Shown here: positions 9,049 through 24,152 of the stretch, piece by piece
Layout of the letters: each line of letters opens with the position of its first letter
How positions within the stretch are numbered: position 1 is the stretch's first letter
From: Mesotoga prima MesG1.Ag.4.2
GTDB taxonomy: Bacteria; Thermotogota; Thermotogae; Petrotogales; Kosmotogaceae
Assembly (NCBI RefSeq): GCF_000147715.2
Contig: NC_017934.1
Span: forward strand, 1,736,001-1,800,000
Reading direction: 5' to 3'
DNA length: 64,000 nucleotides
Notes under the pieces: generated by a model
The model's database searches: none
The model's input: only the letters and a program-made list of their open reading frames with translations
What the model was told of the DNA's origin: nothing
Translations under genes and position numbers: made by a program

Positions 9049-10032
9049 CTACCACCACATGTGAAGCGCTTTGTAGTCTTCCTCTGAAAGAATAGACCGG
9101 ATCAGTTTGTAGCATTCGGTTAGAAGAAGCGTGTTGTACGAGACTTTCCTTTTTAGTGTTGGATGAAAGACCGTCTCTTCCATGAATTTCTCGAAGTGCT
9201 CAACGTACTTCTTCATTCCTTCATTGGTAAGAAGGGTTGAATTCATTTCCTTATCGAAGTCGTCTTCTGTAATGATGGCTTTGTTCAGTAGAGTCATGAT
9301 CAGTCTGTCTACGATTACAGGTTTGAAAACCTCGCTTATGTCGAGGCAGAGCGAGAATCTCATTTCGCAGGGTTCGTGGAGAAAGCTCACTGTGGGATCG
9401 AGTTGGGTCTGATAGATCTTACTGAGTGTCCTGGTGTAGAGTAGTGAGTTCCCGAAGGAGATCATGCAGTTGAGTATACCCAAGGGAGGCTGTCTGATTC
9501 TTGTTACGAATTCCTGACCGGTAAGCCCCGCAAGAATCGGATAGTAGTATTGTCTGAAAGCGCCCTCGACAGCCATTACTGAGTTTACCCCAGTTGTGTT
9601 TTGAAGTCTTTCTCTAGTGTTCTTCAGCCCCTCTATCTTGTCTTTGTATCCGGGAATCTTGCTGGAGGATCTCTGGAGAACTCTAAGCATGTTGTGCATC
9701 GCTCCGTCGATGAATTCTCTAGATAGTTTCAGCCTTTTAATAGGGTCGAGAAAGGTTTTGATCTGTTCTACTAGGAGTTTCCCCGATACTTTCTGCTTCC
9801 TCGGAACGAAACTCCCGCTGTACCAACCATTATGGGAGAAGACATGAAGCGCTACTTCCTTTTTTGAAAGGAAGGAGAGAAGATGGGTGTTAAGATCGAT
9901 TTCTCCAAAGGTCGAAATCGATTCGATCTTTTCTATTGGAATGAACTTTCTTCTGCCCTCACGTTCAAGCAGAAGAGTGTTGTCCTTTCTGCTCAGCTGT
10001 CCGCTGGCAAAGAGATAGAAGTTCTTCTTCAT
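9049..10032 (-). CDS. cas1: Cas1 spacer-acquisition integrase
   Basis: A 327-residue metal-dependent integrase that inserts new spacers at the leader end. I start it at the internal ATG (10032) because AGGAGG lies 8 nt before it; the longer frame would overlap cas4. The N-terminal beta domain begins KKNFYLFASGQLSRKDNTL, which is Cas1-like. The alpha-domain active-site set can be read as E156 (VMAVEGAFRQYYY), H219 (FLHEP) and D231 (LCLDISEVFKPVIVDRLI). It is the last gene of the minus-strand cas operon, 11 nt after cas4. The protein looks intact, although its usual partner cas2 is not found downstream. Confidence 0.96.
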   Translation of the reverse strand: MKKNFYLFASGQLSRKDNTLLLEREGRRKFIPIEKIESISTFGEIDLNTHLLSFLSKKEVALHVFSHNGWYSGSFVPRKQKVSGKLLVEQIKTFLDPIKRLKLSREFIDGAMHNMLRVLQRSSSKIPGYKDKIEGLKNTRERLQNTTGVNSVMAVEGAFRQYYYPILAGLTGQEFVTRIRQPPLGILNCMISFGNSLLYTRTLSKIYQTQLDPTVSFLHEPCEMRFSLCLDISEVFKPVIVDRLIMTLLNKAIITEDDFDKEMNSTLLTNEGMKKYVEHFEKFMEETVFHPTLKRKVSYNTLLLTECYKLIRSILSEEDYKALHMWW

Positions 10033-10043
10033 GATCAAACCTC

Positions 10044-10553
10044 CTAGGAAAAGCAGAGATCGAAGTACGAACAACCTTTGCACCCTTCTTTGAAGAGCGG
10101 AAGGGGCGCATTATCCAGGTTGAAGATTGTCTTTATCTCATCGAGATCTCTTCTTATTTGTTCTTCGTCTTCTTCAGTAAGTGAGAGCATGATCATTTTC
10201 TTGGCTCTGGGATACGTTAGCCTGGCAGTAAATTCGTGAAGGCCAAGTTTATGCTTTAGATAGTAGAGATAATACTTGACCTGATAGATGTGGCCCTCTC
10301 TCACTTCTTTACCGTACTTGATTTCAACGATTTCTCTTGTGTTTCTGAGTATGTCGAGAGAGATCTCGTCGATCACGATGTCTTTGTCTTCGCCCTGACT
10401 GTATTCTTCTTGAAGTAGCTTGCCGAGTTGAACGCTCTCTGAAGTCGATTCCATTGAGATGTTGTGAAGAAAGAACCAGAGCTGCGTCTTGCAGTAATGG
10501 AGATAGTTGATTGCATTACCCCCGATCCTCGGCTGTCTTTCCGTTATTTCCAT
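10044..10553 (-). CDS. cas4: Cas4 RecB-like nuclease
   Basis: 169 residues. Cas4 trims prespacers and helps choose the PAM side during acquisition. The four iron-sulfur cysteines are visible as C21 (YLHYC), C158, C161 (CKGC) and C167 (FDLC). The nuclease core shows D62 in VIDE, E77 and K79 in VEIKYGKE, and the QVKYYLYYL helix (QhxxY type). It overlaps the cas3 stop codon by one base and is followed at once by cas1, so the three genes are coexpressed. Family assignment is secure. Confidence 0.95.
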   Translation of the reverse strand: MEITERQPRIGGNAINYLHYCKTQLWFFLHNISMESTSESVQLGKLLQEEYSQGEDKDIVIDEISLDILRNTREIVEIKYGKEVREGHIYQVKYYLYYLKHKLGLHEFTARLTYPRAKKMIMLSLTEEDEEQIRRDLDEIKTIFNLDNAPLPLFKEGCKGCSYFDLCFS

Positions 10554-12607
10554 CAGAAGCCCTCGACTATGGAACCTTCGTCTTCTTTCGGACCGAGGTA
10601 GCCGAATGATGGATCGTAGATGATTGGCGCGTAGATGAATCCGTCATCATCCTTTTCCAAGCGTCCGATCACATCTCTTACAGGTACTTTGACAAGTTTG
10701 CCGAGTTTCTGCATCTTGCCCGAATTATCGTTCCTGAATTCAGCAGGTATCACTTCTATAGTCTTGTAGGGGATACGGCGAATCAGGTCGTCTGCAAGCC
10801 TTTGATCGATTGACATCGAATAAATCTGGAAGTTCATCTCTCTCACAAACTGCCAGCTCGCCTTACCGGCAGAGATCTCCTCTTCAATGTTCTCTATTTC
10901 AGAGAGTAAGTCTTCCATCATTTCCCTTAGTTCAAGTCCGCTAGGCGTTTGATGGGCTTTTAGGAGTCCAAGAGATTTGGCGACAAGGTTCTTGTTGTAG
11001 ACAGAATATGAGTTTTCATTCTGAGGGAAGATCATAACCTCACCTATCGGAGTGGTGCCTTCTCTGTTTACTCTCCCGAAACGCTGGGTGAGCGAGTCAA
11101 TCGGTGCAGCTTCTGTTATGAGGACATCGTAGCTTATATCAAGGCTGATTTCGATCGTCTGTGTGGCTACGATGATTCTCGGAGGAGAATCTCCCGTAAT
11201 GCGAGAGAGGATTCTTTCCCTGTCTTCGAGGTTGAAGCGACCGTGATAGAGAATTATTTCTTTATCTGGAATCTTATCTGACAGGGTTTTGAAAGCTTCC
11301 GTTGCCTTTTTGACCGTGTTGAAGCAAAGAATGGCTTTTTTCCCCTTTTTATGTTGCCTCTTTGTCTCTTCAACAGGGTCGACATCTTCTAAATGAGAGA
11401 TGGTGATTCTTCTCAGCGATTCACCTTCGTAATCTCTCACTATCACAGGGTAGTCAAGAACTTCCTTGAGCTTCTGGATCATGTAGGAAGGGAGAGTGGC
11501 GCTCATCACGCAAACTGGAGTACCCATGGCGTTAAGCATTTTTATGCTTTCAAGCAGTATGCCAAATGTGTACGGTTGACTCGCGTGGATCTCGTCGAAT
11601 ATGACCGCCGAATTGACGATATTTACTATCTTTGGCTCCCATCTTCCCCAGTTAAGCGACATGAGAAGAAGCTGATCGAGAGTCGCAACGTTAATTGGGT
11701 TGTCAAAGGCTTTCATCCAGAAGATTCTATCTCGGGTGTCTTCGGAGTATCCTTCGTTAGAATACAAATAGTATGCGATGTTGCCGTGGACCAGACCGGT
11801 TTTGTCGGACACTTCTTCCGTGTATCTTTTGTACATAGCTTCGACTGTTGTCACTGTGGGAAGAAAGAGGGTGGACTTTTCTCTTCCAGTCGATTTTGTC
11901 CAGACAAGAGCGGCGAGAGATTTTCCGCGACCAGTAGGAGCGAGGATTATCGTGTCCTTTCCGGTAGAGGCCTCTGCTTGAAATGTGCGCAAGGGCCGAG
12001 AATCGAGTTTTATGCTTGCTGATGAGAGTGACTTCTTTGCGGAAGCCGACCAATCTGCAAGGTTTAGAATTCCCTGGATCAAGAAATAGAGTCGCCTGTC
12101 GCGAGGTGCGCCAAAAAAGAAGTTGCAGAGTCTCTTGAGAAGTTCTCGAGGAGAAGGTATCTGCAAGTCGAGATCGGGAAGCTCAATTCTGAAGTGACCC
12201 TTCGCATAGTCTTTTATCTCCTTGAATTCATTCACAAGTTCGAGGTTTGGAGTCGCCTGTTGTCTTTGAAATTCCAAGGATGAAAAAGAGTCTTTGAATC
12301 GAGAACCATGATGGCCCAGTATAGACTGGAGGATGTAGTTCTTGATGGGGGATTCTTTAAGAGAGGCCATAGCTATCTGAGCCGAAGCAAGTGAGTGGGA
12401 AAAGCCCTTCTTGTCGAAGGAGAATTCTACACAGCCTTTCCCGATGTCGTGGAAGGCGCAGGCGGTTAGAATTGCTTCTGAGATTTGTTTTGGGTCAAGA
12501 TTCGTGTTTTTGAGGGCGATTTTGTTTTGATCAAGATAGCTATGAGCGTAATCAAGAACTCTCTCGGTATGCTCTACCAGGCTTACTCCCGGCTTTGCGA
12601 GAGACAT
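10553..12607 (-). CDS. cas3: Cas3 HD nuclease-helicase
   Basis: 684 residues from the ATG at 12607, chosen because GGAGG stands just before it and the longer frame runs into cas5. The N-terminal HD nuclease domain has FHDIGKG with H53-D54. The middle carries the superfamily 2 helicase motifs: Walker A APTGRGKS, DExH as FDEIHAS, then MSATLPS. The second RecA domain follows, with ATQTIEISLDISYD and the QRFGRVNREG motif. Cas3 is recruited by Cascade and unwinds and cuts the non-target strand. HD and helicase are fused in the usual order. It begins 4 nt after cas5. Confidence 0.96.
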   Translation of the reverse strand: MSLAKPGVSLVEHTERVLDYAHSYLDQNKIALKNTNLDPKQISEAILTACAFHDIGKGCVEFSFDKKGFSHSLASAQIAMASLKESPIKNYILQSILGHHGSRFKDSFSSLEFQRQQATPNLELVNEFKEIKDYAKGHFRIELPDLDLQIPSPRELLKRLCNFFFGAPRDRRLYFLIQGILNLADWSASAKKSLSSASIKLDSRPLRTFQAEASTGKDTIILAPTGRGKSLAALVWTKSTGREKSTLFLPTVTTVEAMYKRYTEEVSDKTGLVHGNIAYYLYSNEGYSEDTRDRIFWMKAFDNPINVATLDQLLLMSLNWGRWEPKIVNIVNSAVIFDEIHASQPYTFGILLESIKMLNAMGTPVCVMSATLPSYMIQKLKEVLDYPVIVRDYEGESLRRITISHLEDVDPVEETKRQHKKGKKAILCFNTVKKATEAFKTLSDKIPDKEIILYHGRFNLEDRERILSRITGDSPPRIIVATQTIEISLDISYDVLITEAAPIDSLTQRFGRVNREGTTPIGEVMIFPQNENSYSVYNKNLVAKSLGLLKAHQTPSGLELREMMEDLLSEIENIEEEISAGKASWQFVREMNFQIYSMSIDQRLADDLIRRIPYKTIEVIPAEFRNDNSGKMQKLGKLVKVPVRDVIGRLEKDDDGFIYAPIIYDPSFGYLGPKEDEGSIVEGF

Positions 12608-12611
12608 TATT

Positions 12612-13307
12612 CTACCTCCAGAGGGGAAAGACAGTATCTGAGACATCTACTGCCTCTCCAGAGTATTCGACCGGTTCGGAGATGTATGTGTAAGGAGATC
12701 TGTTTTTTGGCCTCCGTGCTTTCGGGTTCCGTTTATCTCTATCAAATTCGCTATTCAGCCAGTAAGTCTTGAAGTGAGGGATACTCCCTTCATTTAGAGC
12801 GGTGATGTTGATCTTGCCTTGAAGGTCTCCCTTAACCACAGTGTTGTGTATGACTGATCTCTCCACTCTCTCTGCGGTCTCTAATTCAGACTGGATAAAG
12901 GTTATGAACTCGTCGTCTCTTCCCAGACTTAGGGGGAAGCAGGGATCGGAAATAGCTTTCTTAATCTCTTTTAGTTTGGTCTCGGGGCCCACAATTAGAA
13001 GTCTAATATTGGGTTGATAGAGGACCTCTCTTATCACGACAGCCTTACCAATGGATCTTCCACCGTCTTTTACCTTCTTTATCGCCCATGCGTCTTTTGC
13101 AATTCCTTCATTCTCCTGTATGTGTACGCCGAAAGAAAGGTCCCGGCAATAGTTCTGTGCTTCGAAGTATTCTCTGCCGGTAGCTGCGCCGATTATTCCA
13201 GTGATCGTGGTGGGCGGAGGAAAGGGCAGGCTCTCCTGATAATTCATGGATGCGGGGCTTCGAAAGGAAGCTGTGTATCCTTTTATTGAGATTTGGAGCA
13301 CTAACAT
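12612..13307 (-). CDS. cas5: Cas5 Cascade subunit
   Basis: 231 residues from the ATG at 13307, which follows GGAGGTGAAAAG at good spacing. The N-terminal RAMP fold shows SIKGYTASFRSP and PFPPPTTITGIIGAATG, both typical of Cas5 of subtype I-B. Cas5 caps the 5' handle of the crRNA in Cascade. A strong hairpin followed by TTTT separates it from cas7 upstream, so it may be made in smaller amounts than Cas7. Confidence 0.93.
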   Translation of the reverse strand: MLVLQISIKGYTASFRSPASMNYQESLPFPPPTTITGIIGAATGREYFEAQNYCRDLSFGVHIQENEGIAKDAWAIKKVKDGGRSIGKAVVIREVLYQPNIRLLIVGPETKLKEIKKAISDPCFPLSLGRDDEFITFIQSELETAERVERSVIHNTVVKGDLQGKINITALNEGSIPHFKTYWLNSEFDRDKRNPKARRPKNRSPYTYISEPVEYSGEAVDVSDTVFPLWR

Positions 13308-13328
13308 CTTTTCACCTCCATTGGAAAA

Positions 13329-13348
13329 GGCCCCTCGCATGAGGGGCC
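13329..13348 (-). terminator. Hairpin between cas7 and cas5
   Basis: A perfect 8-bp GC-rich stem with a 4-nt loop (GGCCCCTC-atgc-GAGGGGCC on the minus strand) followed by TTTTCC. It lies 4 nt after the cas7 stop codon and about 20 nt before cas5. In the middle of an operon it would act as a partial terminator or a block to 3' decay, favouring the many-copy Cas7. Confidence 0.75.
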
Positions 13349-13352
13349 AGTG

Positions 13353-14234
13353 TTATATTGTTGAAAGAATCTCTTTCACTCTGGAGAAGGCGTCTGTCAT
13401 GGGAAGAACTTCAACTGTCTCAGGAACTCCAGCATCCAGCGCAGATGCGTCAAGTACTTTCGTGGTTCCAATGATTACGCGATCGATTATGCTTGAATAA
13501 TTGGTAATGCTATCGATCAGCGTTTCGGCATTGATCTTTCCCTTTGTATCACAGCTTACGGATTCGAGGAGGAAGGGAAGCTTTACTGTTTGAAAGGCGA
13601 AGGCGATGAATTTCGGAGAGATGTCTGATAGTATGTTGGTCTGCTTTCCGCCTGTCCAGAGAGTCATCATGGAATCGAGGAAGAGGTTGAGTCTTCTCAA
13701 GCGCTCTTCTTTCTGTATCTCGAGTGTGGTCTCTTTGATTTCAGAAGGATCGAATTTGCCGACCCTGTCAAGTTCTATAAGTCCGCCGCCTCTGAGATAC
13801 GCGGAGTAGACTTCGGTTTCAACCATGTTTCCGCCCTTGTCGCTGGCTTTTCTTGTCTTTGTAAGTAGATCTCTGTCGCCTCTGTAAGGGAAGAGAGATA
13901 CGAGCGGGGCGATTCTCACGGGAGACGTTCTCTTTCTGTTGTCACCGGTTACTGCGATCATAAAGCCGAAGAGGTCGTCGTCGATGTAGTTCAGCGGATC
14001 TCCGAGTGTAGTTTCGACTTCTCCGTCTACGGGAGTGGAGAGGGCCTCGCCGATTTCTGCAAATCTCTCTCTCAGGCCGTGGCGCTGACATTGTCCGGAA
14101 ACGTAGTTGAAAGCGGATCCGTCGGGAGCGACGATCTTTTTTGCGGTCTGAATGTTGCCTTCTGTGAATCCTGCGTTGGGGTTACCCATAGTGACTTTGG
14201 ATATCGAACCCCAGGAGAGACATTTAATCTGCAA
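13353..14234 (-). CDS. cas7: Cas7 Cascade backbone (DevR/Cst2-type)
   Basis: 293 residues if translation starts at TTG 14234. That codon stands after GGAGGTGAAAAG, the same signal that precedes cas5, and the upstream ATG lacks such a site. The site itself is encoded by the last codons of cas8, so the two genes overlap by 11 nt. The N-terminus (KCLSWGSISKVTMGNPNAG) and the central GDNRKRTSPVRIAPL region fit the DevR/Cst2 branch of Cas7, which binds crRNA in several copies along Cascade. Confidence 0.93.
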   Translation of the reverse strand: MQIKCLSWGSISKVTMGNPNAGFTEGNIQTAKKIVAPDGSAFNYVSGQCQRHGLRERFAEIGEALSTPVDGEVETTLGDPLNYIDDDLFGFMIAVTGDNRKRTSPVRIAPLVSLFPYRGDRDLLTKTRKASDKGGNMVETEVYSAYLRGGGLIELDRVGKFDPSEIKETTLEIQKEERLRRLNLFLDSMMTLWTGGKQTNILSDISPKFIAFAFQTVKLPFLLESVSCDTKGKINAETLIDSITNYSSIIDRVIIGTTKVLDASALDAGVPETVEVLPMTDAFSRVKEILSTI

Positions 14235-15525
14235 TCTTTTCACCTCCATTCTGTGAGGATGCATAATGTCTTGAAAGGTATTTGTTCACGGCGAAGATTA
14301 CAAGAAGTGCTTTGGGCTTCTTCCAGCTTTCCTCATTGAGGATCCTTATGAACTCTTCGGGAATTCTGATTTTCCAATCCTCTTTTGCGTACTTGAATTC
14401 AAGATCGGCAAGGGTGAGCAAGAGATCCTCCAGAGAGCGGCTGTTGCGTAAAGAGTATAGATCGCCGAAGCTCTGGGCTTCAAAGACCGCGTTGCCAATC
14501 ACTTCTCCGGCCTTTTTTGAGAGATCGATTGTCATTTGATCCAAGCCATTCACTCCTTTCATGGTATTTGATGCAACTATCACCTCGTATATAGAATGGA
14601 CAGGGTAATCGAAATCAAAGATGATCATCTGAAGCCTTTCTTCGAGTGGCTTGAAAGAGAGGATCATTCTGGATATCTCTTCACGTCTCGAAACGTCGGC
14701 AGAGGGGCTTCCGGGGATTACCAGACTGTCCATGAATTTCGAGAAGTCGCCACCCAGGGTCTCCACGTTTTCGAAAAAGGTTGTCAGCTCCTCCACTCTC
14801 TCGAATGAGTCGAAGTTGAGAAATGAGTTGTTTCTTCCAGTGTTCGAGACCTGCATAACTTTGAACGAGGAGCGGGGAATGAATCTGGTCTTCTCGAACA
14901 GGGTGTGAAGAGAAAGGAGAAGGGTTTCATAGGGTTCCTGAGGATAGAATCTCGCCTTGACCTTCAGGTTTCTCCATGAACCGGGTTCGTGGAGGTCTTT
15001 CATCCAGAGAAATGTATTGTAGGTCGATTCGAGAGTATCGCTCTCCGGGAAGAGGTAAGTGATCACGTAGTCCTGCCCGTCCTTATAGGATGTGTAGAAC
15101 AAGGCGAGACCGGCCATCATTCCAAGGAACTGGCAGTTAAGGCAGACTTCACCGCTTCCCGAGCCGAAGCTGAAGAAGCTCTGAAAGTTCTCGGCCTTCA
15201 CCGATAGGGGATCTCCCAGCATCGACAGTTTTTCGAGAGTTGAGACTCTAGAACCGCAAAGACTGCATACTTTGCTTCCAATCTTGTTTTCCTCGAGGAT
15301 CTTTGAGACTTTGTCCAGAACTGTGTACTGCTTTAGAAAAGGTCTGAGGTTTGGCGCCCAGGGCTTGCCGTTCTTGTTGAGCATATCTTTGAGGGCGTTT
15401 TCGAAGATTGTCTTTTTGGGCGTCTGTGTCTCGAAAAGGTTTCCCGTGATAGTACAGTCTGCAGTATATCTCTTTATCGCGACCGCTCCGGCCATTTGCC
15501 AGAAACTTCTTATATGAACTCTCAT
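14224..15525 (-). CDS. cas8: Cas8-type large Cascade subunit (zinc-finger, Cst1-like)
   Basis: 433 residues from ATG 15525, preceded by AGAGGTGT. Two CxxC pairs, C87/C90 and C128/C131, form a likely zinc finger as in Cst1/Cas8b proteins. The rest is weakly conserved, as usual for this family. Its position before cas7-cas5-cas3 is the standard place for the PAM-reading large subunit of type I-B. It starts 16 nt after the 57-residue Cys-rich gene. Family name rests on context plus the finger; a profile search could place it in a neighbouring Cas8 group. Confidence 0.82.
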   Translation of the reverse strand: MRVHIRSFWQMAGAVAIKRYTADCTITGNLFETQTPKKTIFENALKDMLNKNGKPWAPNLRPFLKQYTVLDKVSKILEENKIGSKVCSLCGSRVSTLEKLSMLGDPLSVKAENFQSFFSFGSGSGEVCLNCQFLGMMAGLALFYTSYKDGQDYVITYLFPESDTLESTYNTFLWMKDLHEPGSWRNLKVKARFYPQEPYETLLLSLHTLFEKTRFIPRSSFKVMQVSNTGRNNSFLNFDSFERVEELTTFFENVETLGGDFSKFMDSLVIPGSPSADVSRREEISRMILSFKPLEERLQMIIFDFDYPVHSIYEVIVASNTMKGVNGLDQMTIDLSKKAGEVIGNAVFEAQSFGDLYSLRNSRSLEDLLLTLADLEFKYAKEDWKIRIPEEFIRILNEESWKKPKALLVIFAVNKYLSRHYASSQNGGEKIAD

Positions 15526-15541
15526 GTGACACCTCTTTCGG

Positions 15542-15715
15542 TTAAGAATTGTCCTCACAGTTTTCGCAGACGTTTCTTCCTTCCTGAATTGTGCAACCGC
15601 AGCAGTCGCAGAAGACTCCTTTGCACCAGCAGGTCGCGCAGGCGCTGCCTTCTAAACCAAATCCCTCATCTTCATCTAGGCAATCATCCTCGTAGAAATC
15701 TCTTTCGTCTTCCAA
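15542..15715 (-). CDS. 57-residue acidic Cys-rich protein heading the cas operon
   Basis: Starts at TTG 15715, 7 nt after GGAGGTGA. The first 24 residues are strongly acidic (EDERDFYEDDCLDEDEG). The second half holds nine cysteines, spaced CATCWC, CDCCGC and CENC. This looks like a compact zinc ribbon or double knuckle that could bind nucleic acid or RNA polymerase. The shared promoter-like motif lies 23 nt upstream and cas8 follows 16 nt downstream, so it is the first gene of the cas operon. I do not recognise a family. Confidence 0.75.
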   Translation of the reverse strand: MEDERDFYEDDCLDEDEGFGLEGSACATCWCKGVFCDCCGCTIQEGRNVCENCEDNS

Positions 15716-15738
15716 GATGGCTCACCTCCTTCAAGCTT

Positions 15739-15755
15739 TATAATCACACTTTTTT
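15739..15755 (-). promoter_or_regulatory. Shared motif, site 1 (cas operon)
   Basis: AAAAAAGTGTGATTATA on the minus strand, 23 nt before the TTG of the 57-residue gene. One of four near-identical copies in this locus. No TTGACA-like element stands 16-18 bp upstream. The TGTGATTAT part could be read as a poor extended -10, but the flanking A-tract and the GTG are conserved too. Confidence 0.75.
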
Positions 15756-15761
15756 GGAGTA

Positions 15762-16064
15762 TCAGTTCTCGAGTACATATTCCCCGTCAATCTTATGGAG
15801 TCTTGGTGGTTCAAAGGCGATGTTGACCTTACTTAGTAATTCGGATATCTTGTCCAGAGCAGACTGTAATTCCTCTACGCCGTTGTCTTCCTCGCAGAAA
15901 TGGGAGAAGGTAACGAACACGGAAAAGTCGTCCTGCCGTCGGCTGATTTGAATCTGTCCTTCGGGAAGTATCTCTCCATTTTTGAGAGAGTCGAGCAGTT
16001 TTTCTTTGAAGTAATCGACGACAATCCAGGGAGCTTTTGCATAGTATTTGTAGACAAGCTCTAT
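15762..16064 (-). CDS. 100-residue protein with an apparent AUA start codon
   Basis: The reading frame of 99 sense codons has no ATG, GTG or TTG near its 5' end. It begins at ATA (16064), which stands 7 nt after a perfect AAGGAGG, and every other frame from that site hits a stop at once. The protein begins with ELVYKYYAKAPWIVVDYFKE and has charged helices after it, for example EELQSALDKISELLSK. I do not recognise a family. It has its own copy of the shared motif 46 nt upstream and ends just before the next motif copy. The high-quality frame and ribosome site argue that it is real. Confidence 0.7.
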   Translation of the reverse strand: MELVYKYYAKAPWIVVDYFKEKLLDSLKNGEILPEGQIQISRRQDDFSVFVTFSHFCEEDNGVEELQSALDKISELLSKVNIAFEPPRLHKIDGEYVLEN

Positions 16065-16110
16065 GAAATCACCTCCTTATATTGACAGTCATGGCACTCA
16101 GCCTAGGATA

Positions 16111-16125
16111 TATAATCACACTTTT
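16111..16125 (-). promoter_or_regulatory. Shared motif, site 2 (100-aa gene)
   Basis: AAAAGTGTGATTATA on the minus strand, 46 nt before the ATA start codon. The 5' A-tract is shorter than at the other sites, while GTGTGATTAT is exact. Confidence 0.72.
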
Positions 16126-16367
16126 CTGTAATGAGCAGATAGTCTTTTGGTTTTCCTGGGATTTGCTTGGTGAAGAATGACCTCTTCTACCTAGATGGTG
16201 TTTGTGAAGAAGAACGTTAATGTAGGGATTGCTATTCCATAAACGGCACGATTTTCTTAAAGATATGATCTGAATTCTCTAATACAAATAGAATCAGGAG
16301 AGAGAAAGTCTTCGGGTAATTTAAGTATGGAACGGGGATCCAGGTGCCGTTAGCTTGGTGGCGCAGA

Positions 16368-16517
16368 TTACTTGCTCAGTTCTTCCTTGGTCTTCTTGTA
16401 CTGTACAGCTATATGACATGCAGCATCGAATACTTCCAGTCCTACTTTGACAACGAGCATGATTGCTTGTGCGATATTTGTTGGATTGCGAGGTGCTCCC
16501 AGTTCATTTGGTTTCAC
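16368..16517 (-). CDS. 49-residue small protein with a hydrophobic helix
   Basis: I start it at GTG 16517, directly after AAAGGGAGGTGAAACA; the longer frame would place that ribosome site inside the coding region. Residues 15-40 form one largely hydrophobic helix (AQAIMLVVKVGLEVFDAA) and the tail is basic and charged. It could lie on a membrane or pack into a complex. No family is recognised. The shared motif lies 45 nt upstream. Between its end and the next motif there is a 240-nt gap in which I see nothing. Confidence 0.65.
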   Translation of the reverse strand: MKPNELGAPRNPTNIAQAIMLVVKVGLEVFDAACHIAVQYKKTKEELSK

Positions 16518-16562
16518 TGTTTCACCTCCCTTTATCTCAGTTATGATCGTACTTTCATGATT

Positions 16563-16578
16563 CATAATCACACTTTTT
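16563..16578 (-). promoter_or_regulatory. Shared motif, site 3 (49-aa gene)
   Basis: AAAAAGTGTGATTATG on the minus strand, 45 nt before the GTG start. It differs from the others only at the last base, and the distance to the start matches site 2. Confidence 0.72.
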
Positions 16579-16600
16579 AAATTATTGCCGCAAAGACAGC

Positions 16601-17290
16601 TCAGAAGAGATTTAGCTGATTATCATGGCCGGGTTCTCTTGAGATCAGCGCGTTAAAAAGAATCGAATAGGTCTTGATTCCTATTCCTCTAATGTCTAGG
16701 ATCTCTCTGAAACGAGTGACGTCTTCGCGTTTGTCCAGAAGTCTTTTTATGATCGAAGGCCTGAGAGTAAGGCATTTCAGTTCATATTCAGACATCGCCC
16801 TTAGCTGTTTTATCATCGATTCCTCGTTTTTCGAAGGGCTTTTATCCAGACAGAGAAGTATTTCTGCCTTTGAGCTTTCAAATACCTCTCTTGTTATGTT
16901 CTCCGATGTTTGAGGATCTATACCCCCCTTTCCTGCCCCGGCCAGAGGAAGGGCAACTCTTTCAAAATTGCTTTCTGTTATGATCTCTTCCGCACGCTTA
17001 AGAGAGGAACGTATCCATGAGATTTTTGATGGCATCTTCCAGTCTTCTTTGACAAACAGACTGATTATCCTTGGAAAAATATCTCCTCGGAATATCCAGG
17101 CAGAACCGGGCAAAGGACCTTCGTGGGAGCATCTCTCTCTGTAATTATCAAAATAGCTAGGAAATCTAAGTTTGAACTCAAGCGCCAATCCGGCCCCCAT
17201 AACTCCCTCTGTATTGACGGTGTTTGCTATTACGGGGACATTCTCTTCTTCAAACGCGGCAAATACGCTTTTCTTATATACAGTTATCAT
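16601..17290 (-). CDS. darG: DarG-like macrodomain antitoxin
   Basis: 229 residues. The N-terminal macrodomain has ANTVNTEGVMGAGLALEFK, the ADP-ribose-binding signature of DarG, and LPLAGAGKGGI for the second ligand loop. In DarTG pairs this domain removes ADP-ribose from thymidine in DNA. The C-terminal part (about 150-229) is helical, with DIRGIGIKTYSILFNALISRE resembling a helix-hairpin-helix. The usual DarG C-terminal domain, which binds and blocks DarT, is longer. The gene starts 4 nt after darT with GAGGG before its ATG. Confidence 0.88.
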   Translation of the reverse strand: MITVYKKSVFAAFEEENVPVIANTVNTEGVMGAGLALEFKLRFPSYFDNYRERCSHEGPLPGSAWIFRGDIFPRIISLFVKEDWKMPSKISWIRSSLKRAEEIITESNFERVALPLAGAGKGGIDPQTSENITREVFESSKAEILLCLDKSPSKNEESMIKQLRAMSEYELKCLTLRPSIIKRLLDKREDVTRFREILDIRGIGIKTYSILFNALISREPGHDNQLNLF

Positions 17291-17294
17291 AAGC

Positions 17295-17885
17295 TCAGCC
17301 CTCGAAGTAATAGGTGTATCCGCTATCGCGGAGCTGTCTGATGGAGATTCCTTTTATCTTTTCCGCAGTTCTGTCTAGAATTATACATTCGATCCATTCC
17401 GGTTCGATCATGTCGATCTTCACTAAGATCTCGGCACCAAGTCTTTTCTTGAGCAACCAGTTATCGTAGAAATTTCTCGTTGAAAGCACCACTTCAATAT
17501 TTATCTTCTTGAGAGCGGGTTCACTTAGAGTGTAGATCTCGGCATCACTGCAGGCGGCGATTCTGTCAGATACCAGGCAGTCATAGTGAGTTACTAGATC
17601 GCTATTCAGTCTTAGAATCGCGAAATCTCTGTTTTCTTTCTGGTAGCGGAAGGTCATCGCATTCCTGGTATTAAAGAACAGCGGTACATATTCATGTAGG
17701 GACTTTCTTTCTCTGATTGTTTGAACGGTCTGATCGGAGTAATCATCGTATGGTATCTCCAGAGTCTCTACTGCCATCTTGCTCATTACTCCGTGTTCGA
17801 GTATCGAAGGAATATTCTTTACTGGCGAAAGATAGTAGAGATGCTTCACTCCGAACGCCTGTAAAGGATTACTGCTCGTAACCAT
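17295..17885 (-). CDS. darT: DarT-like DNA thymidine ADP-ribosyltransferase
   Basis: 196 residues, typical DarT length. The NAD-binding start is LYYLSPVKNIPSILEHG. HEYVPLFFNTRNAMTFRY corresponds to the YVPFYF-P-S segment of DarT, and RLGAEILV near residue 155 holds the expected catalytic glutamate. Known DarT enzymes modify thymidine in single-stranded DNA and stop replication, and they act in phage defence. It is followed by its antitoxin, reads from a copy of the shared motif 23 nt upstream, and is divergent from the polymerase operon. A start at ATG 17885 has GGGAGGTGAG before it. Confidence 0.88.
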   Translation of the reverse strand: MVTSSNPLQAFGVKHLYYLSPVKNIPSILEHGVMSKMAVETLEIPYDDYSDQTVQTIRERKSLHEYVPLFFNTRNAMTFRYQKENRDFAILRLNSDLVTHYDCLVSDRIAACSDAEIYTLSEPALKKINIEVVLSTRNFYDNWLLKKRLGAEILVKIDMIEPEWIECIILDRTAEKIKGISIRQLRDSGYTYYFEG

Positions 17886-17908
17886 TATCTCACCTCCCTT
17901 TCAGGGTT

Positions 17909-17925
17909 TATAATCACACTTTTTT
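17909..17925 (-). promoter_or_regulatory. Shared motif, site 4 (darTG)
   Basis: AAAAAAGTGTGATTATA on the minus strand, 23 nt before the darT ATG, identical over 17 bases to site 1. It sits only 8 bp from the -35-like element of the divergent polymerase promoter, so occupancy of one could affect the other. Confidence 0.75.
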
Positions 17926-18013: not shown

Positions 18014-21000
18014 ATGGTTAATAAAATCACTTATTCCTTGCAGCAGGTCTTCGCCGGTCTAGAACTTCTGATAAAAGAGGACTACAAACTGTTGTTCGAG
18101 AAGTTTTCTCCGGAGTTTGGACTGATCGAAACGCTCGAGGAGCCTTCCGGTTCTGCTCTAGCGAAGTTCTCATTTGAATTCGAAGAAGATCGTTATTCTG
18201 TAGGATTCAAGGTTCTAAATCCCGATCAGGATGGTGCCTTTTCATATCTTTCGAAAAGGTATTCGACGCCGCTAATACTGCTAGAGAAGAGGGGGCGTTC
18301 CTCTGACTATCTCGATCTCGAGAACTTCTGGGTAGTGCCAGGGTATTACTTGAGAATGGCCTTTGTGTGCTTGCAGGTTTTGAGAGAACTGCAGTCAAAA
18401 AACGGCATGGAACGTTTAGATACAGTCCTCGAAACGGCTGAAACTCTTCTCAACAGAACGGTTGTTGGGACCGAGATTCTCAAGCAATACGACACAAGTG
18501 ACATTGAGGAAGAACCCGAGATGAAGAAGCCGAAGTATCTAAAGGTCCCGATCCTCTTTGAACTGCCCTCTTCAAACGGGCTTCTGCAGATATCCGAGCT
18601 GAGAAAGGCGGTCATACCCGGAGACAAAGTGAAGGAATCGCTTAGATTGCCTCATTTCTCGCACTTGGGGAAGCTGGATCTTCTCGAGACTCCTGAATCC
18701 GTGAGAATCGGAATGAATCTCTTCCTTGCGAACGGCGCCCGTTATAATGCTTCGGATCTTGAGATAGAAAGCAGTGGCGAAGATTCCGAAGCCCTTCTTA
18801 GCCCTTCTACGTGTGCTGTTCCTTTCATGGCATACTCAGATGGCGTCAGGGTTACTATGGGAGGCAAGAATCTGAAGCAGGCAGTAAAGGTTGTTTCCAG
18901 CGAAAAGCCAATAATTCGGACTCCCATTGATGAGGAAGTTGATCTTGACTACGGTGTCAATGCCCTAGCCGGATATGCGTTGTTCAACGGCTTGAACTTC
19001 GAAGATGGAATAGTTTGTTCTGAAGGGTTTTCAATGAAAATGTGCATCGTAGAGAAAAAGACAATTGAAATCGTCGACTCAGTTCCTGTATTGCTCGATG
19101 CGAAGGTCAGTGTTAAGAACAGGTCTACGATAGAGCTTTCCAGTGAGGAAGGTTCGATAAGGATTGTTTACAACTTCAGAACTAAAGGTTCGATTGTCAA
19201 TAAAGGTGACTGGCTGATAAGAAGAAATGTCTTTTTTGGTGGAAACGATAATCCCACTAAGTCCTATTCAAAGAATATCTACTATGACCTTTCATATCCA
19301 GGGGAAATCTTGCAGAATCCAGAAGAGAGAATGATCTCGTTCATTATGAGAACTATACCAACCGCCAGGAAGATAAAAAAGGGGGAAAAATTAGTAGACA
19401 ACTTGAACGAGAGCGTCGTCTCCATAAGTGTTCCCTTGACTATCACAAAGCCGCTCGAAATTGGTGACAAGATTACTGGAAGACATGGAAACAAGGGCAC
19501 TATATCGAAGATCGTTTCCGAAAGAGAAATGCCGCATGTTGAAATAGATGGCCAACGCAGACCTCTGGACATTATTCTGAGCCCCTTCGGGGTTATAACC
19601 AGAATGAATCTAGGTCAGCTACTAGAGACGCACAAATCACTTGAAGGTGAATATGTCGACAAACCTTTTAAGAATCTGGATCTCGCTTCCAGGGTCGCCA
19701 AAGGAAGAGACATACCACAGCTGAAGAAGAGACTCTTTTTTGCAGATGGAACTTCGTTTGAGGCAGCAGTCGGTTATCAGTATTTTGTGAGGCTAGATCA
19801 CTGCGTAAGGGACAAATTGCATGTAGTAGATCTTGCGGAGACCTCTAAGATTACGGGACAGCCAGTGAAAGGAAAGCGGAGAGAGGGCGGACAGAGAATC
19901 GGCGAAATGGAGTTTTGGACTCTCTTCGACAACAATGCGCTTGAGACCGTTGGGAGGTTTTCTCAAACTAACATCAGCGATTCTTCAGACTTCATGAAGC
20001 GCTACTTCGATACCTTCAGGCTTCTTATGAACTACTACAGGGATTTTGATGTTGAAATCGAGGACGACCCGTTGAGAATAATTGTTAAGGAGACTTCAAA
20101 TGACTTCCTGGAGAAAGTCGCGAGCGACGAAACCATGAGCGAGTTCTTCAAGCAAATTAAGGGAAGGGCGAAAGACAGGAAAGAGAGAAGATTCCTGCTA
20201 TCTAAGTCAGGATATTTGAGAAAGTACATGCTTGGAAGACGGATTCATTCTTCTGGCAGAACCGTGATCACACCGGTGACAGACATAGACATAGACCATG
20301 TTTATCTTCCCTACGAATTTGCAAAACTTTGGCTTCCTCTGAAAGAGGATTCTAAAGAAGGGATTAAGATTGCTAATGATCTGGCGAAGGAGAGTAATCT
20401 CTATGTGCTTCTCAACAGACAGCCCTCTCTCCATAGACACAGTATTTCCTCTGCTAGGCCGATTTTCTGGGAGAACAAGACAATAGGATTGCCAATTATG
20501 TTGTGCGATGGATTCGGCGCCGATTTCGATGGCGACTCCATGGCTGTTTACCTGCCCGTAGATCAGGATGAAGATCTGAAGAGAGAGCTGAAATCTATGC
20601 TTCCCTCCAACAACCCGTTCAGAATTGGAACGGGAGAACTCACTTTTTCGGTCACTCAGGATTTGGTGTACGGTCTATATAGAAAGAGAGGACTTAACTC
20701 CAAGAAGGTAAAAGAGGAGCTTACACAGATAATAGAGAATTCCAACAATATTTCGAAAGATCTTCTGAAGTGGCAGAATGAAAGCCTTGCAGCGGCAAAG
20801 GAATCGGGACTGAGTCTTGATCTGCGCGATATCGCTTTGATGAGCGAGGTTGCCAAGAGCGTTAAAGATTCGGGCAGTAGAGGAAAACCAGAGCACTTCG
20901 TACAGATGGCTGAGGGGATTGATCTCGATGGAAGAAGGGCTGAAGCCTTTGCGAGAGGAGTATCGAGAGAAGATTACCTTGGTCGTACAGATGGTCTTGA

Positions 21001-21892
21001 TGTGAACATTGCGTCCAGATCGAGGACAGGTTTGATCGACAAGAAACTCCATGTCGCCGAAGCGGGATACTTTACCAGGAAGTTGGTCGAGTTTCTGTAT
21101 CCCGTTTCTGTCACAGAAGAAGACTGTTGTACAGATGACGGAATAGAACTCAATCAATCATTTGTCCAGCATCTGGCATTGCGAAAATACTCTCTTGAAA
21201 GACTGATACTCGGCAGATATGTCAAGAGGCCGATGGACAAAGAGTGGATGCCTGTAACGCGAAGTAATCTGAATGACTTCAGAGACTGCGATCTTCTGCT
21301 GAGAAGCCCGGTTAAGTGTGCGTCCTCAGGGGAGAACGGCATCTGTTCAAAGTGTGCGGGTCTCGAGCTCTCCAGTATGAAGAAGTTTAGAGTCGGCAGC
21401 TTTTTGGGAGTTCTTTCAGGCCATACTATAGGAGAGCGGGGAACTCAGCTTTCGATGAAGACCTTCCAGACGGGCTCATCAGGGTTCAGTATGCAGCGGG
21501 TCTCTTCGGAATTTTTCAAGGCCGAAGAAGAGTTTTCTTCTTATCTAAAACGGCTTGCCGACAGATCTATCGAAGGGATAATGAAGGGTTCATCGAAGTC
21601 GGCATCAGGTTCTGCTGAAGAGGGATCGCCCGTTCTCGGTACCATAGATGTGGCCTCTATCTATTTGGAGGTTCTCTTTAGACATTTGAAGGATACCGAA
21701 ATACGTACTGAGGGGGAATTGAAGAAGAGACTCTCTGATCCAAGGGAAGTCGGGATATTCTCTGCACTTTCTTTCGAGAAAAGCGGCAGTTCAGAGAAAA
21801 TCGGAATCGGAGAAGAAATAGAGGAGAAGTCTCCTAAGGCGAATTATGCGCTTAGGCCGGGAGAGGTGGCTAAATGGGTAGGGAAAAAATAA
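18014..21892 (+). CDS. Single-chain beta/beta-prime RNA polymerase linked to CRISPR
   Basis: 1292 residues, less than half of a normal bacterial beta plus beta-prime. Residues 210-640 follow beta: HFSHLGKLDLLETPE (214-228), NGLNFEDG (325-332), GDKITGRHGNKGTISKI (484-500), LSPFGVITRMNLGQLLE (522-538) and GGQRIGEMEFWTL (625-637). Residues 725-1155 follow beta-prime: SGYLRKYMLGRRIHSSGR, LLNRQPSLHRH, then the catalytic GADFDGD (835-841), bridge helix near 1003-1022, zinc cysteines 1038/1102/1111/1114 and trigger loop GTQLSMKTFQTG. All three catalytic Asp are present. The usual Asn of NADFDGD is Gly and the trigger-loop His is Gln. Only about 90 residues join the halves, so the sigma-binding clamp coiled coil is missing. 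Followed with overlap by an unknown gene, an AAA+ ATPase and cas6. GGAGGA precedes the ATG. Confidence 0.93.
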   Translation: MVNKITYSLQQVFAGLELLIKEDYKLLFEKFSPEFGLIETLEEPSGSALAKFSFEFEEDRYSVGFKVLNPDQDGAFSYLSKRYSTPLILLEKRGRSSDYLDLENFWVVPGYYLRMAFVCLQVLRELQSKNGMERLDTVLETAETLLNRTVVGTEILKQYDTSDIEEEPEMKKPKYLKVPILFELPSSNGLLQISELRKAVIPGDKVKESLRLPHFSHLGKLDLLETPESVRIGMNLFLANGARYNASDLEIESSGEDSEALLSPSTCAVPFMAYSDGVRVTMGGKNLKQAVKVVSSEKPIIRTPIDEEVDLDYGVNALAGYALFNGLNFEDGIVCSEGFSMKMCIVEKKTIEIVDSVPVLLDAKVSVKNRSTIELSSEEGSIRIVYNFRTKGSIVNKGDWLIRRNVFFGGNDNPTKSYSKNIYYDLSYPGEILQNPEERMISFIMRTIPTARKIKKGEKLVDNLNESVVSISVPLTITKPLEIGDKITGRHGNKGTISKIVSEREMPHVEIDGQRRPLDIILSPFGVITRMNLGQLLETHKSLEGEYVDKPFKNLDLASRVAKGRDIPQLKKRLFFADGTSFEAAVGYQYFVRLDHCVRDKLHVVDLAETSKITGQPVKGKRREGGQRIGEMEFWTLFDNNALETVGRFSQTNISDSSDFMKRYFDTFRLLMNYYRDFDVEIEDDPLRIIVKETSNDFLEKVASDETMSEFFKQIKGRAKDRKERRFLLSKSGYLRKYMLGRRIHSSGRTVITPVTDIDIDHVYLPYEFAKLWLPLKEDSKEGIKIANDLAKESNLYVLLNRQPSLHRHSISSARPIFWENKTIGLPIMLCDGFGADFDGDSMAVYLPVDQDEDLKRELKSMLPSNNPFRIGTGELTFSVTQDLVYGLYRKRGLNSKKVKEELTQIIENSNNISKDLLKWQNESLAAAKESGLSLDLRDIALMSEVAKSVKDSGSRGKPEHFVQMAEGIDLDGRRAEAFARGVSREDYLGRTDGLDVNIASRSRTGLIDKKLHVAEAGYFTRKLVEFLYPVSVTEEDCCTDDGIELNQSFVQHLALRKYSLERLILGRYVKRPMDKEWMPVTRSNLNDFRDCDLLLRSPVKCASSGENGICSKCAGLELSSMKKFRVGSFLGVLSGHTIGERGTQLSMKTFQTGSSGFSMQRVSSEFFKAEEEFSSYLKRLADRSIEGIMKGSSKSASGSAEEGSPVLGTIDVASIYLEVLFRHLKDTEIRTEGELKKRLSDPREVGIFSALSFEKSGSSEKIGIGEEIEEKSPKANYALRPGEVAKWVGKK

Positions 21893-22782
21893 CAGAAAAG
21901 ACACCTGAAAAGTCGAAAGGCAAAAACAAGGAAAAGTTTAAATCGCTTACCACGTCCTTTAGAAATAGACCCGTTGAAACCAGCGAAGAAAGTGAAGAAG
22001 AGCTTCCAGATGAAGAAGCGTTTGAGGAAGTTGAATCTGAAGACCACGATAATGACGAGACTTCAAATTCCGATCCGTTCGCATCTGTAGAGAACCTTGA
22101 GAATCTGGTTTTTGAGCCGGCAGAGAGGAATCCGATTTCCGAGAAGAGAGTTGTTCTGGAAATCGTCAAAGGGAAGAGGTACCATTGTCTGAGAAGATAC
22201 AGGTGGAGTTTCGAATTCTCTGAAAACTCTCCCCAAAAAGAAGAACACATGAGGCGTTTTGGGGAAACGGTTAGAAGAACAGGCAGGATTATTGAGAATT
22301 TCCTCAATGGATACCTCGAAGGAGAGACGGCCTCGATTCAAGATCTCTTTGGCTCGCTCAGCTCAAAGATTCTCTTTGGCGTCTCCGATTTGAATGACGT
22401 ATCCAAGAACCAGTTATCCTGGTATCTCTTCCGGATGCCCGACGGAGTTCTATACACTCTCAACTGCCTAACTCCCAGAAGCGGTGCCCCAAATCTTTCG
22501 AAGCAAGCACTGTCGATTATGAGAATCTCAATGGGGGACCCGGAGGTGGGAGAAGTGCTCAAATATAAGTTTGAAGAAGTGATCGCAAAGTCTACCGGGT
22601 TAATTGACTATTCGCTTGAGCTGGAAGATTTGTTGGGGAGAGTCATCTGCCTGAACAGGACCATTATGAAGGCCGGGTATCCCGAAAGCAAACTGGGCGA
22701 ACCGAGAGCTCTATTGAAAGAGCTTAACCGAAGTTCAATAAGACACTATTTTCATCAAATTGCTGGGAGAGCTAGGAAATGA
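21874..22782 (+). CDS. 302-residue protein of unknown family, candidate polymerase partner
   Basis: The frame overlaps the polymerase stop by 19 nt and the next start by 4 nt (ATGA). Translational coupling of the three genes is therefore likely. Residues 1-30 are lysine-rich, 33-75 strongly acidic (SEESEEELPDEEAFEEVESE) and probably disordered. From about 88 on the protein is folded and mixed alpha/beta, with KGKRYHCLRRYRWSFEF, a helical middle and a C-terminal LNRTIMKAGYPESKLGEPRA stretch. I recognise no sigma, alpha or omega signature. Its place between the polymerase and the ATPase makes it a candidate promoter-specificity or assembly factor, but that is context only. Confidence 0.85.
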   Translation: MGREKITEKTPEKSKGKNKEKFKSLTTSFRNRPVETSEESEEELPDEEAFEEVESEDHDNDETSNSDPFASVENLENLVFEPAERNPISEKRVVLEIVKGKRYHCLRRYRWSFEFSENSPQKEEHMRRFGETVRRTGRIIENFLNGYLEGETASIQDLFGSLSSKILFGVSDLNDVSKNQLSWYLFRMPDGVLYTLNCLTPRSGAPNLSKQALSIMRISMGDPEVGEVLKYKFEEVIAKSTGLIDYSLELEDLLGRVICLNRTIMKAGYPESKLGEPRALLKELNRSSIRHYFHQIAGRARK

Positions 22783-24152
22783 GAGTATTCATTGTCGAGA
22801 AGGGTTTTGAAGAGCATGAGCTAAGAGTGCTCAAGGAGATCGTTGATAGTCTTGTTTCTTCAAAAGAGGATCTAAGAGAAAAAGTGGAGATTGTTGAGCT
22901 TTCTGAATTTCGCGAAGAACAGGGAATAATGATCATCTCCCAGCAGGTCATTGGAGAGCTGAATCCTGAACGGTCTTCAGGCCAGTTATTCATAATGTTC
23001 AAAGGAGGTCTTGAAAGCAACATAGTAGGTTTCGCGCAAAGAATGGGTGCTGTCGGAATCTTCCCTATCGATCGTTTCTATGGAGAGAGAATGGAATATG
23101 GGGAGATTTCACGGTTTGAGAATGTCTTGAAAAACGTTTTGAGAGATAGACTTTCAACCCGTTTTCCTGAATGGGACTTTAAAAAAAGGATCGACTGGAA
23201 AATGAAACTTGATGACAAGGCTTTCGAAGATGAAGACGCCTATATTTCGCTATTTGGAGACGAGATTACCCACAAGAACGTCAAGAAGACCAACGAAATA
23301 ATAACGTCTGTCATGCCCTATGTTAAAGAGCTAAAGACGTTTAGATTAAAATCGAAAAGGGTTCTTGAAGAGCTAAAAAAGAAGGAACTCTCTGAAGACC
23401 CGAAACTTGAAGGAGCTAGAATAGCCATAAGAAAACTGAATGATTTGACATCCGAAATGAAGTTCAGAAAGCCGGTTTGTATTCTGCTTACGGGTCCAAC
23501 CGGCTGCGGCAAGACTCTTCTGGCGAAGTACATAGCAAACAGCCTATTTGGCTCCTTGGAGACCTTTTCTAGAATCTCACTGGTCAATATGGGCGATAAC
23601 CTTCTTGAAAGCGAGCTTTTCGGAAGTTTTCCGGGGTCGTGGACCGGGAGTTCTTATAAGGTTGGAAAAATGGTGTCAATGGCGGGAGGAGCGGTATTCC
23701 TCGATGAGATCGGAGAAATCTCTCCTGCCATTCAGGCAAAGCTTTTGACCTATCTGGACGATATGAAGGTCCTTATAGAAGGCCTTTCAGATACTTCGGG
23801 AGTGAGAGTTCCCGTATTGATTATCGCCGCCACGAATCGAGATGTTAGAAAGGAAATGAGCCTCGGCAATTTCAGGTCTGACTTCTATCAGCGTTTTGCC
23901 TACGAGATTCACATGCCTTCGCTTTCTGAGAGGAAGTCAGATTTCAGATATATTCTTAGTCATCTTCTCCAGGTGAAAAAGAAGATTCTGAATCTAAGTA
24001 TAGATGAGATAAGCATAGCCGCAATAGAGAAACTGGAGGGTTACGAGTACCCCGGCAACTATCGAGAACTAGAGAGAGTTGTTACCGCGGCCATGATGAG
24101 CGCAAAGATGGATGGACGGGAGATTGTTCTGTCTAGAGATGTTCAGTTTTAG
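22779..24152 (+). CDS. AAA+ ATPase of the sigma-54-activator type without DNA-binding domain
   Basis: 457 residues. The core has Walker A GPTGCGKT (239-246), ESELFGSFPGSWTG (277-290) at the place of the GAFTGA loop, Walker B VFLDEIGE (307-314), sensor I ATNRD, the FRSDFYQRF arginine-finger helix and sensor II YPGNYRELERV. This is the bacterial enhancer-binding-protein layout. The essential Phe of GAFTGA is Trp, and the chain ends about 25 residues after sensor II, so the usual Fis-like DNA-binding helix-turn-helix is missing. Residues 1-100 look like a worn receiver domain (GAVGIFPIDRF at its end) without a clear phosphorylation site. In this operon it may remodel the dedicated polymerase instead of sigma-54 holoenzyme. 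Confidence 0.9.
   Translation: MRVFIVEKGFEEHELRVLKEIVDSLVSSKEDLREKVEIVELSEFREEQGIMIISQQVIGELNPERSSGQLFIMFKGGLESNIVGFAQRMGAVGIFPIDRFYGERMEYGEISRFENVLKNVLRDRLSTRFPEWDFKKRIDWKMKLDDKAFEDEDAYISLFGDEITHKNVKKTNEIITSVMPYVKELKTFRLKSKRVLEELKKKELSEDPKLEGARIAIRKLNDLTSEMKFRKPVCILLTGPTGCGKTLLAKYIANSLFGSLETFSRISLVNMGDNLLESELFGSFPGSWTGSSYKVGKMVSMAGGAVFLDEIGEISPAIQAKLLTYLDDMKVLIEGLSDTSGVRVPVLIIAATNRDVRKEMSLGNFRSDFYQRFAYEIHMPSLSERKSDFRYILSHLLQVKKKILNLSIDEISIAAIEKLEGYEYPGNYRELERVVTAAMMSAKMDGREIVLSRDVQF

Follow-up and report, generated by a model that had tools for sequence, protein, structure and literature searches.

The chromosome of Mesotoga prima MesG1.Ag.4.2 encodes, within a window of 64,000 nucleotides (nt; NC_017934.1, positions 1,736,001 to 1,800,000), an RNA polymerase with fused beta and beta' parts, a 302-amino-acid (aa) middle protein and an AAA+ ATPase in one operon (hereafter, the cassette), and beside it four copies of a repeated element ahead of CRISPR, toxin-antitoxin and small genes. 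Judging from sequence comparisons and structure models, we consider it likely that these copies act as promoters for a second, dedicated RNA polymerase, sigma54-like and activated by ATP, that switches on a defence regulon. This reading starts from what was observed, namely the element, its distribution and its neighbours, the cassette, and similarities in sequence and fold.

An oriented element ahead of defence genes

A search of the window placed the 14-mer AAAAGTGTGATTAT exactly at 15740-15753, 16112-16125, 16564-16577 and 17910-17923, always on the minus strand, and yielded no further exact copy in the 64 kb. The preliminary description, made from the letters of the window, had reported these four minus-strand copies ahead of genes with coordinates that were right within 2 nt, and its statement that the window holds no other copy is true of the exact 14-mer. 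The 24-nt sites are as follows.

17900..17923, minus: site 1, element AAAAGTGTGATTATAAACCCTGAA, upstream of darT; exact match, with the Shine-Dalgarno sequence starting at element base 24
16554..16577, minus: site 2, element AAAAGTGTGATTATGAATCATGAA, upstream of a 49-aa gene; exact match
16102..16125, minus: site 3, element AAAAGTGTGATTATATATCCTAGG, upstream of a 100-aa gene; exact 14-mer match
15730..15753, minus: site 4, element AAAAGTGTGATTATAAAGCTTGAA, upstream of a 57-aa gene and the I-B cas operon; exact match, with the Shine-Dalgarno sequence from base 22

Site 3 has the most divergent 3' half among these four. Between the 14-mer and the start codon we measured 24 nt (57-aa gene and darT), 46 nt (49-aa gene) and 47 nt (100-aa gene), so the arrangement described earlier stands while its values of 23 and 45-46 nt need slight correction.

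The whole genome (2.98 Mb) contains five exact copies of AAAAGTGTGATTAT, all on one strand, compared with 0.04 expected per genome from base composition and with zero exact copies of the reversed 14-mer as a control. The fifth copy lies ~10 kb before the window start (G000:C1:1726004; L006:10003-10016), and a variant, AAAAGTGTGAGTATG, is found just before the window start (C1:1735376-1735390). All six clear copies in the genome fall inside 28 kb, ahead of defence genes, and many copies at unrelated host promoters, the outcome that the preliminary description had named as contrary to a promoter, were not seen. The copy at 1726004 was also considered as a plus-strand sigmaA -10 element, as its reverse complement contains TATAAT, and this was dropped, with no convincing gene following; we assigned the copy to the minus strand because the helicase gene there has a motif-bearing relative in another genus.

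The search that had been proposed for the genome and its relatives thus gave extra copies outside the window, and the element recurs in other Thermotogota as an asymmetric ~23-bp sequence, AAAGTGT-RNN-TRWAAA-N-YTGRR. Diverged but recognisable copies surround the cassettes, such as AAAGTGTGTGTATAAGTTTGAG (L102), AAAGTGTAAATGTATAACTTGAA (L048), AAAGTGTGCATATAAATATGGA (L108), AAAGTGTACTTAAAAACATGGA (L055) and AAAGTGTGATTAAAGAATTTGAA (L100). In the logo of 39 sites AAAGTGT is constant bar one base in one site, an invariance that is partly by construction as the sites were gathered by this word, and it is followed by R,N,N,T,R,W,AAA,N,Y,TG,R,R. No conserved position was detected upstream, from -45 to -3 of the element, and the earlier remark that no -35 element is shared proved correct over all 39 sites.

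At least one clear site was present in 13 of the 27 genomes with a cassette, and by our count ~29 of 45 pattern matches in these genomes fall within or close to the cassette contig region; as the relaxed pattern gives about one background match per genome across the phylum, the number of genomes by itself was not taken as evidence. The genes preceded by the element in relatives are cas operons (I-B, III-A and III-B), cas6, cas10, Cmr1, cas2, cas8b, cas4-cas1, darT and helicases, together with a uracil-DNA-glycosylase-like gene in other genera. The gene darT follows the element in M. prima (G000), G008 and G010, with the same cassette-linked operon in G002; a helicase does so in M. prima and G020 (39% identical), and cas6 in G008, G010, G020, G094 and G095. 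The element thus stands ahead of cas, darT and helicase genes in several genera independently.

The element varies with the genome and not with the downstream gene. The triplet that follows AAAGTGT had 93% identity within genomes and 43% between them (0 of 20,000 shuffles), a statistic that overstates the case, given the dependence among related genomes and among some tandem sites. A triplet that is near-constant in each genome and differs between genomes is what a single genome-specific factor reading every site would be expected to produce.

Several features point to promoter function. A ribosome-binding site and start codon followed within 120 nt downstream of 30 of 44 sites; the same was true of 8% of random positions and, on the mirrored side, of 10 of the 44 sites, and the element is therefore oriented as well as asymmetric. 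The first Shine-Dalgarno base never occurred before base 19, counted from the first A of AAAGTGT, and several occurred at bases 19-24, while the start codon lay between 27 and more than 200 nt from the element. Provided that the ribosome-binding sites at bases 19-24 are functional, the transcript would start by about base 17-20, which would put GTGT near -14 to -11. Around 40 sites, the best matches to a sigma70 signal (-35 TTGACA and -10 TATAAT, 16-18 bp spacing) equalled those in shuffles, and the sigma54 promoter TGGCAC-N5-TTGCW (-24/-12) showed no excess over shuffles; the logo has one strong box, AAAGTGT. The promoter reading of the preliminary description is thus supported by an element that is long, asymmetric, genome-specific and present in about half of the cassette genomes, with neither sigma signal around it and never intruded on by a Shine-Dalgarno sequence. 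The element is absent upstream of the polymerase operon itself, where a TTTGGA-N17-TATAAT stretch (a weak match, 9 of 12) faintly suggests expression by the housekeeping enzyme.

Some sites form tandem pairs 71-119 bp apart; among them are same-strand pairs with a spacing of 71-108 bp upstream of cas10 or small genes (L054:11590/11661; L055:322/400 and 11858/11931; L057:3653/3761). A weak, nearly palindromic match within a CRISPR spacer of G020 (L105:10278) was taken as chance, and antisense matches within the polymerase gene of G066 (L064) were dropped. De novo searches at element-free cassette loci (G023, G026, G006/G007, G012 and Petrotoga-like) did not turn up another motif in its place; 8-mer enrichment gave no information even for the positive control, and the exact-repeat search does recover the element in L044 and L100.

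The polymerase cassette and a putative sigma54-type factor

The polymerase operon starts at 18014 on the plus strand and is divergent from site 1, as had been pointed out, with the gene order polymerase, 302-aa protein, 457-aa AAA+ protein and then cas6.

18014..21892, plus: fused beta-beta' RNA polymerase, 1292 aa, with the ADFDGD catalytic motif; Pfam Rpb2_6, Rpb1_2 and Rpb1_5, and PDB profile matches
21874..22782, plus: middle protein, 302 aa, proposed reduced sigma54-type factor with an extra-long helix and a helix-turn-helix (ELH-HTH)
22779..24152, plus: receiver-like AAA+ ATPase of the sigma54-activator type, 457 aa; Pfam Sigma54_activat 1.2e-32

The polymerase has both double-psi catalytic barrels, GADFDGD and the Rpb1/Rpb2 domains in one reading frame, with only ~75 residues between its beta and beta' halves. 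Most of the beta' N-terminal ~330 residues are missing, and in the pairwise match the aligned beta' part begins from about residue 329. In cellular enzymes this region holds the zinc finger, the clamp and the clamp helices, and is the usual anchoring place of sigma70. The genome has its ordinary rpoB (1187 aa) and rpoC (1574 aa) genes at 783-788 kb, and the fused polymerase is thus an extra enzyme.

No Pfam or PADLOC family recognised the middle protein. Its 25 family members share a basic Q/K-rich N-terminus and a C-terminal domain, with an acidic stretch in most of them. The AlphaFold2 model has good confidence from about residue 87 onwards, and the N-terminus is disordered and could not be aligned to sigma54 by profile. 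In the structure search the top eight rows were all sigma54 (Z 6.8-4.0 over 99-113 residues; next row Z 3.5), and model residues 81-210 matched sigma54 residues 268-415 (195-334 of the Aquifex protein), the region of the extra-long helix and helix-turn-helix. Alignment by hhalign against Thermotogota sigma54 gave E 0.0046 with a probability of 7.6%, on STVSRAV..KFVQTPVGTFPIRYFF; with the other two cassette families, which served as controls, E was 0.63-0.66. The R of STVSR lines up with residue 178 of the middle protein, where 18 of 25 members have R and 7 have K; by our count the R of STVSR is Arg383 of Klebsiella/E. coli sigma54, which crosslinks to promoter DNA (PMC5505868).

In sigma54 the helix-turn-helix reads the -12 element and the RpoN box reads the -24 element (PMC7057263). 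The RpoN box ([SA]RRTVxKYR) was present in Thermotogota rpoN proteins and absent from all 25 middle proteins, and a factor without this box and a promoter with a single strong element fit each other. We do not class the middle protein with RpoN, as the sigma54 relation rests on three modest, concordant signals. Beyond the preliminary description, then, more copies of the element occur outside the window, and the 302-aa protein resembles, by sequence and model, a reduced sigma54-type factor and most likely works as sigma54 does.

The model of the 457-aa ATPase aligned to NtrC1 (1ny5) over residues 1-457, and its full-length structure matches were receiver-AAA+ proteins; the best PADLOC match of the AAA+ part, RtcR_PspF2, covered residues 189-441 only. 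In the 25-member alignment the GAFTGA-type loop departs from the strict consensus, with GSWTGS here and GAFTGA, GAYTDA and similar sequences in the family. By our reading the N-terminal receiver-like domain has no evident phosphoacceptor aspartate. The C-terminal helix-turn-helix is missing in all 25 AAA+ members, which end right after the AAA+ lid; some known bacterial enhancer-binding proteins likewise lack it. As no rpoN could be detected in the cassette genomes G006, G007, G053 and G054, the target of the activator there is not ordinary sigma54, and if the middle protein is sigma54-like, the AAA+ protein gains a target.

The order of the three genes is kept across the phylum, and by our count the cassette or a clear part of it was found in 27 genomes, this one included, with middle proteins of 150-317 aa and with Cas or CARF genes nearby in most of them. 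Among the contigs scanned, close relatives occurred in Thermotogota only, and the close-relative scan of viral contigs gave no cassette match. A profile scan of IMG/VR (L130-L209) recovered many viral single-chain fused beta-beta' polymerases of ~2000-2200 aa, with the middle factor near none of them, and the phage and plasmid records held only ordinary or partial rpoB/rpoC matches. In three AT-rich genomes (L065, L067 and L069) the gene directly ahead of the polymerase, in the same orientation, is of the CTVGAS type, CARF-like as read by eye, and may connect the cassette with type III signalling. The polymerase of the G059 cassette is split into several frames (L059:9998-13334), and a close relative of the ATPase of the cassette (L052:7302-8705, minus; 37-40% identical over the whole length) occurs in G011, where no fused polymerase was found.

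Proposed mechanism, competing explanations and related systems

In the mechanism that we infer, recognition, start site, activation by ATP and inducing signal would fit together as follows. The fused enzyme (18014-21892) would bind the middle protein, a much reduced sigma54-type factor, whose helix-turn-helix would read AAAGTGT as a single -12-like element and keep the complex closed. The AAA+ ATPase, receiver-like and devoid of a DNA-binding domain, would use ATP to remodel this closed complex upon a signal, and transcription would start close to the YTGRR end, ~17-20 bp from the first A of AAAGTGT. The members of the regulon here would be darTG, the two small genes, the I-B cas operon, the III-B operon with cas2 and a CARF gene, and the operon of the helicase and HD protein. 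Given the neighbouring type III CRISPR and CARF genes, the activating signal might be a nucleotide second messenger. We are more tentative, giving it somewhat less than even weight, about the broader proposal that the chromosome carries a complete second transcription machine (a minimal fused polymerase, a mini-sigma54 and an ATP-driven activator) with its own promoter class, which would run an infection-triggered immune regulon of type I-B and type III CRISPR, DarTG and helicases independently of the housekeeping enzyme.

Several observations weigh against promoters of the fused polymerase. Of the 27 cassette genomes, 14 have no clear copy of the element near the cassette, among them G023 and G026 of the same genus. 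The similarity to sigma54 is modest (Z below 8, and the hhalign probability given above), and the structure search found no sigma54 core-binding domain match for the middle protein, whose C-terminal helices (208-301) have no assignment. G010, G024 and G021 carry sites, and the fused polymerase was not found there; draft gaps could explain G010 and G024, but not the single-contig G021. In G010 and G024 the copies stand before cas6, darT and a cas2/III-B operon, and the copy in G021 is isolated (L101:7663, 9045; L111:907; L110:10670).

Sites in three genomes without the polymerase would also suit an operator, bound by a separate activator or repressor while ordinary sigmaA polymerase transcribes the genes, and so would the tandem pairs with their 71-119 bp spacing. 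We regard an operator as unlikely, as the element is asymmetric, oriented with the gene and located where the transcript would need to start, the 40 sites show no sigma70-like signal above shuffles, and the only DNA-binding domain of the cassette is that of the sigma54-like protein. It is less probable still that the housekeeping polymerase uses the element with an alternative sigma, either ordinary RpoN or another sigma factor. This genome does have an rpoN gene, and TRWAAA looks like a -10 element, but matches to TGGCAC-N5-TTGC were not above shuffles, G094, G095 and G097 have cassette and sites with no rpoN match over the cut-off, and we know of no -35 or -24 element that reads AAAGTGT. Finally, a strand-specific sequence directly ahead of ribosome-binding sites could be an RNA element in the 5' leader, read by a ribosomal or RNA-binding regulator and transcribed from promoters further upstream; this seems very improbable to us, with a distance to the start codon that varies from 27 to over 200 nt and no other promoter visible upstream.

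Bacteria are generally viewed as having one core RNA polymerase that is retargeted by sigma factors, with extra multisubunit-type polymerases known in viruses and plasmids. The cellular enzyme has separate beta and beta' subunits with an N-terminal clamp, whereas the cassette enzyme is a single frame with the beta' N-terminus mostly missing. In the searchable literature, which leaves most subscription journals and bioRxiv outside, no account of a polymerase reserved for CRISPR and defence genes came up. If promoters of the fused polymerase are confirmed, a cell-encoded polymerase with promoters at CRISPR and toxin-antitoxin genes would represent a new level at which immunity is controlled. It could evade phage proteins that inactivate the polymerase of the host, and would reveal how small a part of sigma54 is enough for activator-driven initiation. 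The promoter list makes the idea of a dedicated polymerase open to direct test.

One close parallel is the sigma54 (RpoN) holoenzyme with NtrC/PspF activators (PMC7057263, PMC5505868), which shares an activator-class AAA+ ATPase and, as predicted here, a promoter element near -12; the factor itself shares with the middle protein the ELH-HTH and a basic residue at the Arg383 position, and perhaps a basic Q-rich N-terminus and an acidic stretch. The cassette differs in lacking the RpoN box, a recognisable core-binding domain and a -24 element, in having its own fused polymerase, and in an activator without a DNA-binding domain. RtcR-like CARF-AAA+-HTH regulators (PMC4012209; PADLOC RtcR_PspF2) likewise combine a sensor with a sigma54-activator AAA+ domain near defence genes, but they have a helix-turn-helix and are predicted to act via ordinary sigma54, whereas the cassette ATPase has a receiver-like sensor and no helix-turn-helix. 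The RNA polymerase of yeast cytoplasmic virus-like elements, with its UCS promoters (PMC6211774), is also a beta-beta' fusion that uses one short element (ATNTGA) 20-40 nt before genes, but it is poxvirus-related and cytoplasmic, transcribes the genes of its own element and has no sigma54-type factor. Jumbo-phage non-virion RNA polymerases (AR9 gp226; PMC7598289) are reduced multisubunit-type enzymes with their own short promoter and their own factor replacing sigma, but are phage-encoded, with split subunits, template-strand uracil promoters and no AAA+ activator. The fused IMG/VR polymerases resemble the cassette enzyme as single open reading frames matched by the polymerase profile, but are larger, viral, and without the middle factor or the cassette ATPase nearby.

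Genes behind the sites in M. prima

17295..17885, minus: darT; Pfam DarT 9.6e-33
16601..17290, minus: darG-like macro-domain antitoxin; Pfam Macro 7e-10
16368..16517, minus: 49-aa gene without a family match; 96% identical in G029
15762..16064, minus: 100-aa gene without a family match; 99 aa identical in G029
15542..15715, minus: 57-aa Cys-rich gene, first in the cas operon; 100% identical in G029
9049..15558, minus: type I-B cas operon (cas8b, cas7, cas5, cas3, cas4, cas1); PADLOC matches
24170..24949, plus: cas6, after the cassette; Pfam Cas_Cas6_C and PADLOC Cas6b

Downstream of the variant site (1735376) are genes for a small membrane protein, cas2, a CARF7-type protein, Cmr1, Cas10/Cmr2, Cmr3 and more RAMP proteins, and this operon is a type III-B CRISPR system. 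The fifth exact copy lies 162 nt ahead of a 1031-aa helicase gene, followed by a 1076-aa HD protein that is 34% identical to the first gene behind a site in G008.

The 100-aa frame has no ATG, GTG or TTG after its good Shine-Dalgarno sequence, and its start is ATA here and ATC in the sister species (L044 7968-8267, minus), yet its 99 residues are identical between both species. In G026 cas6 is broken by a frameshift (L045:2983-3760). A group II intron reverse transcriptase/maturase at 25548-26843 of the window (minus) adjoins the cassette and cas6.

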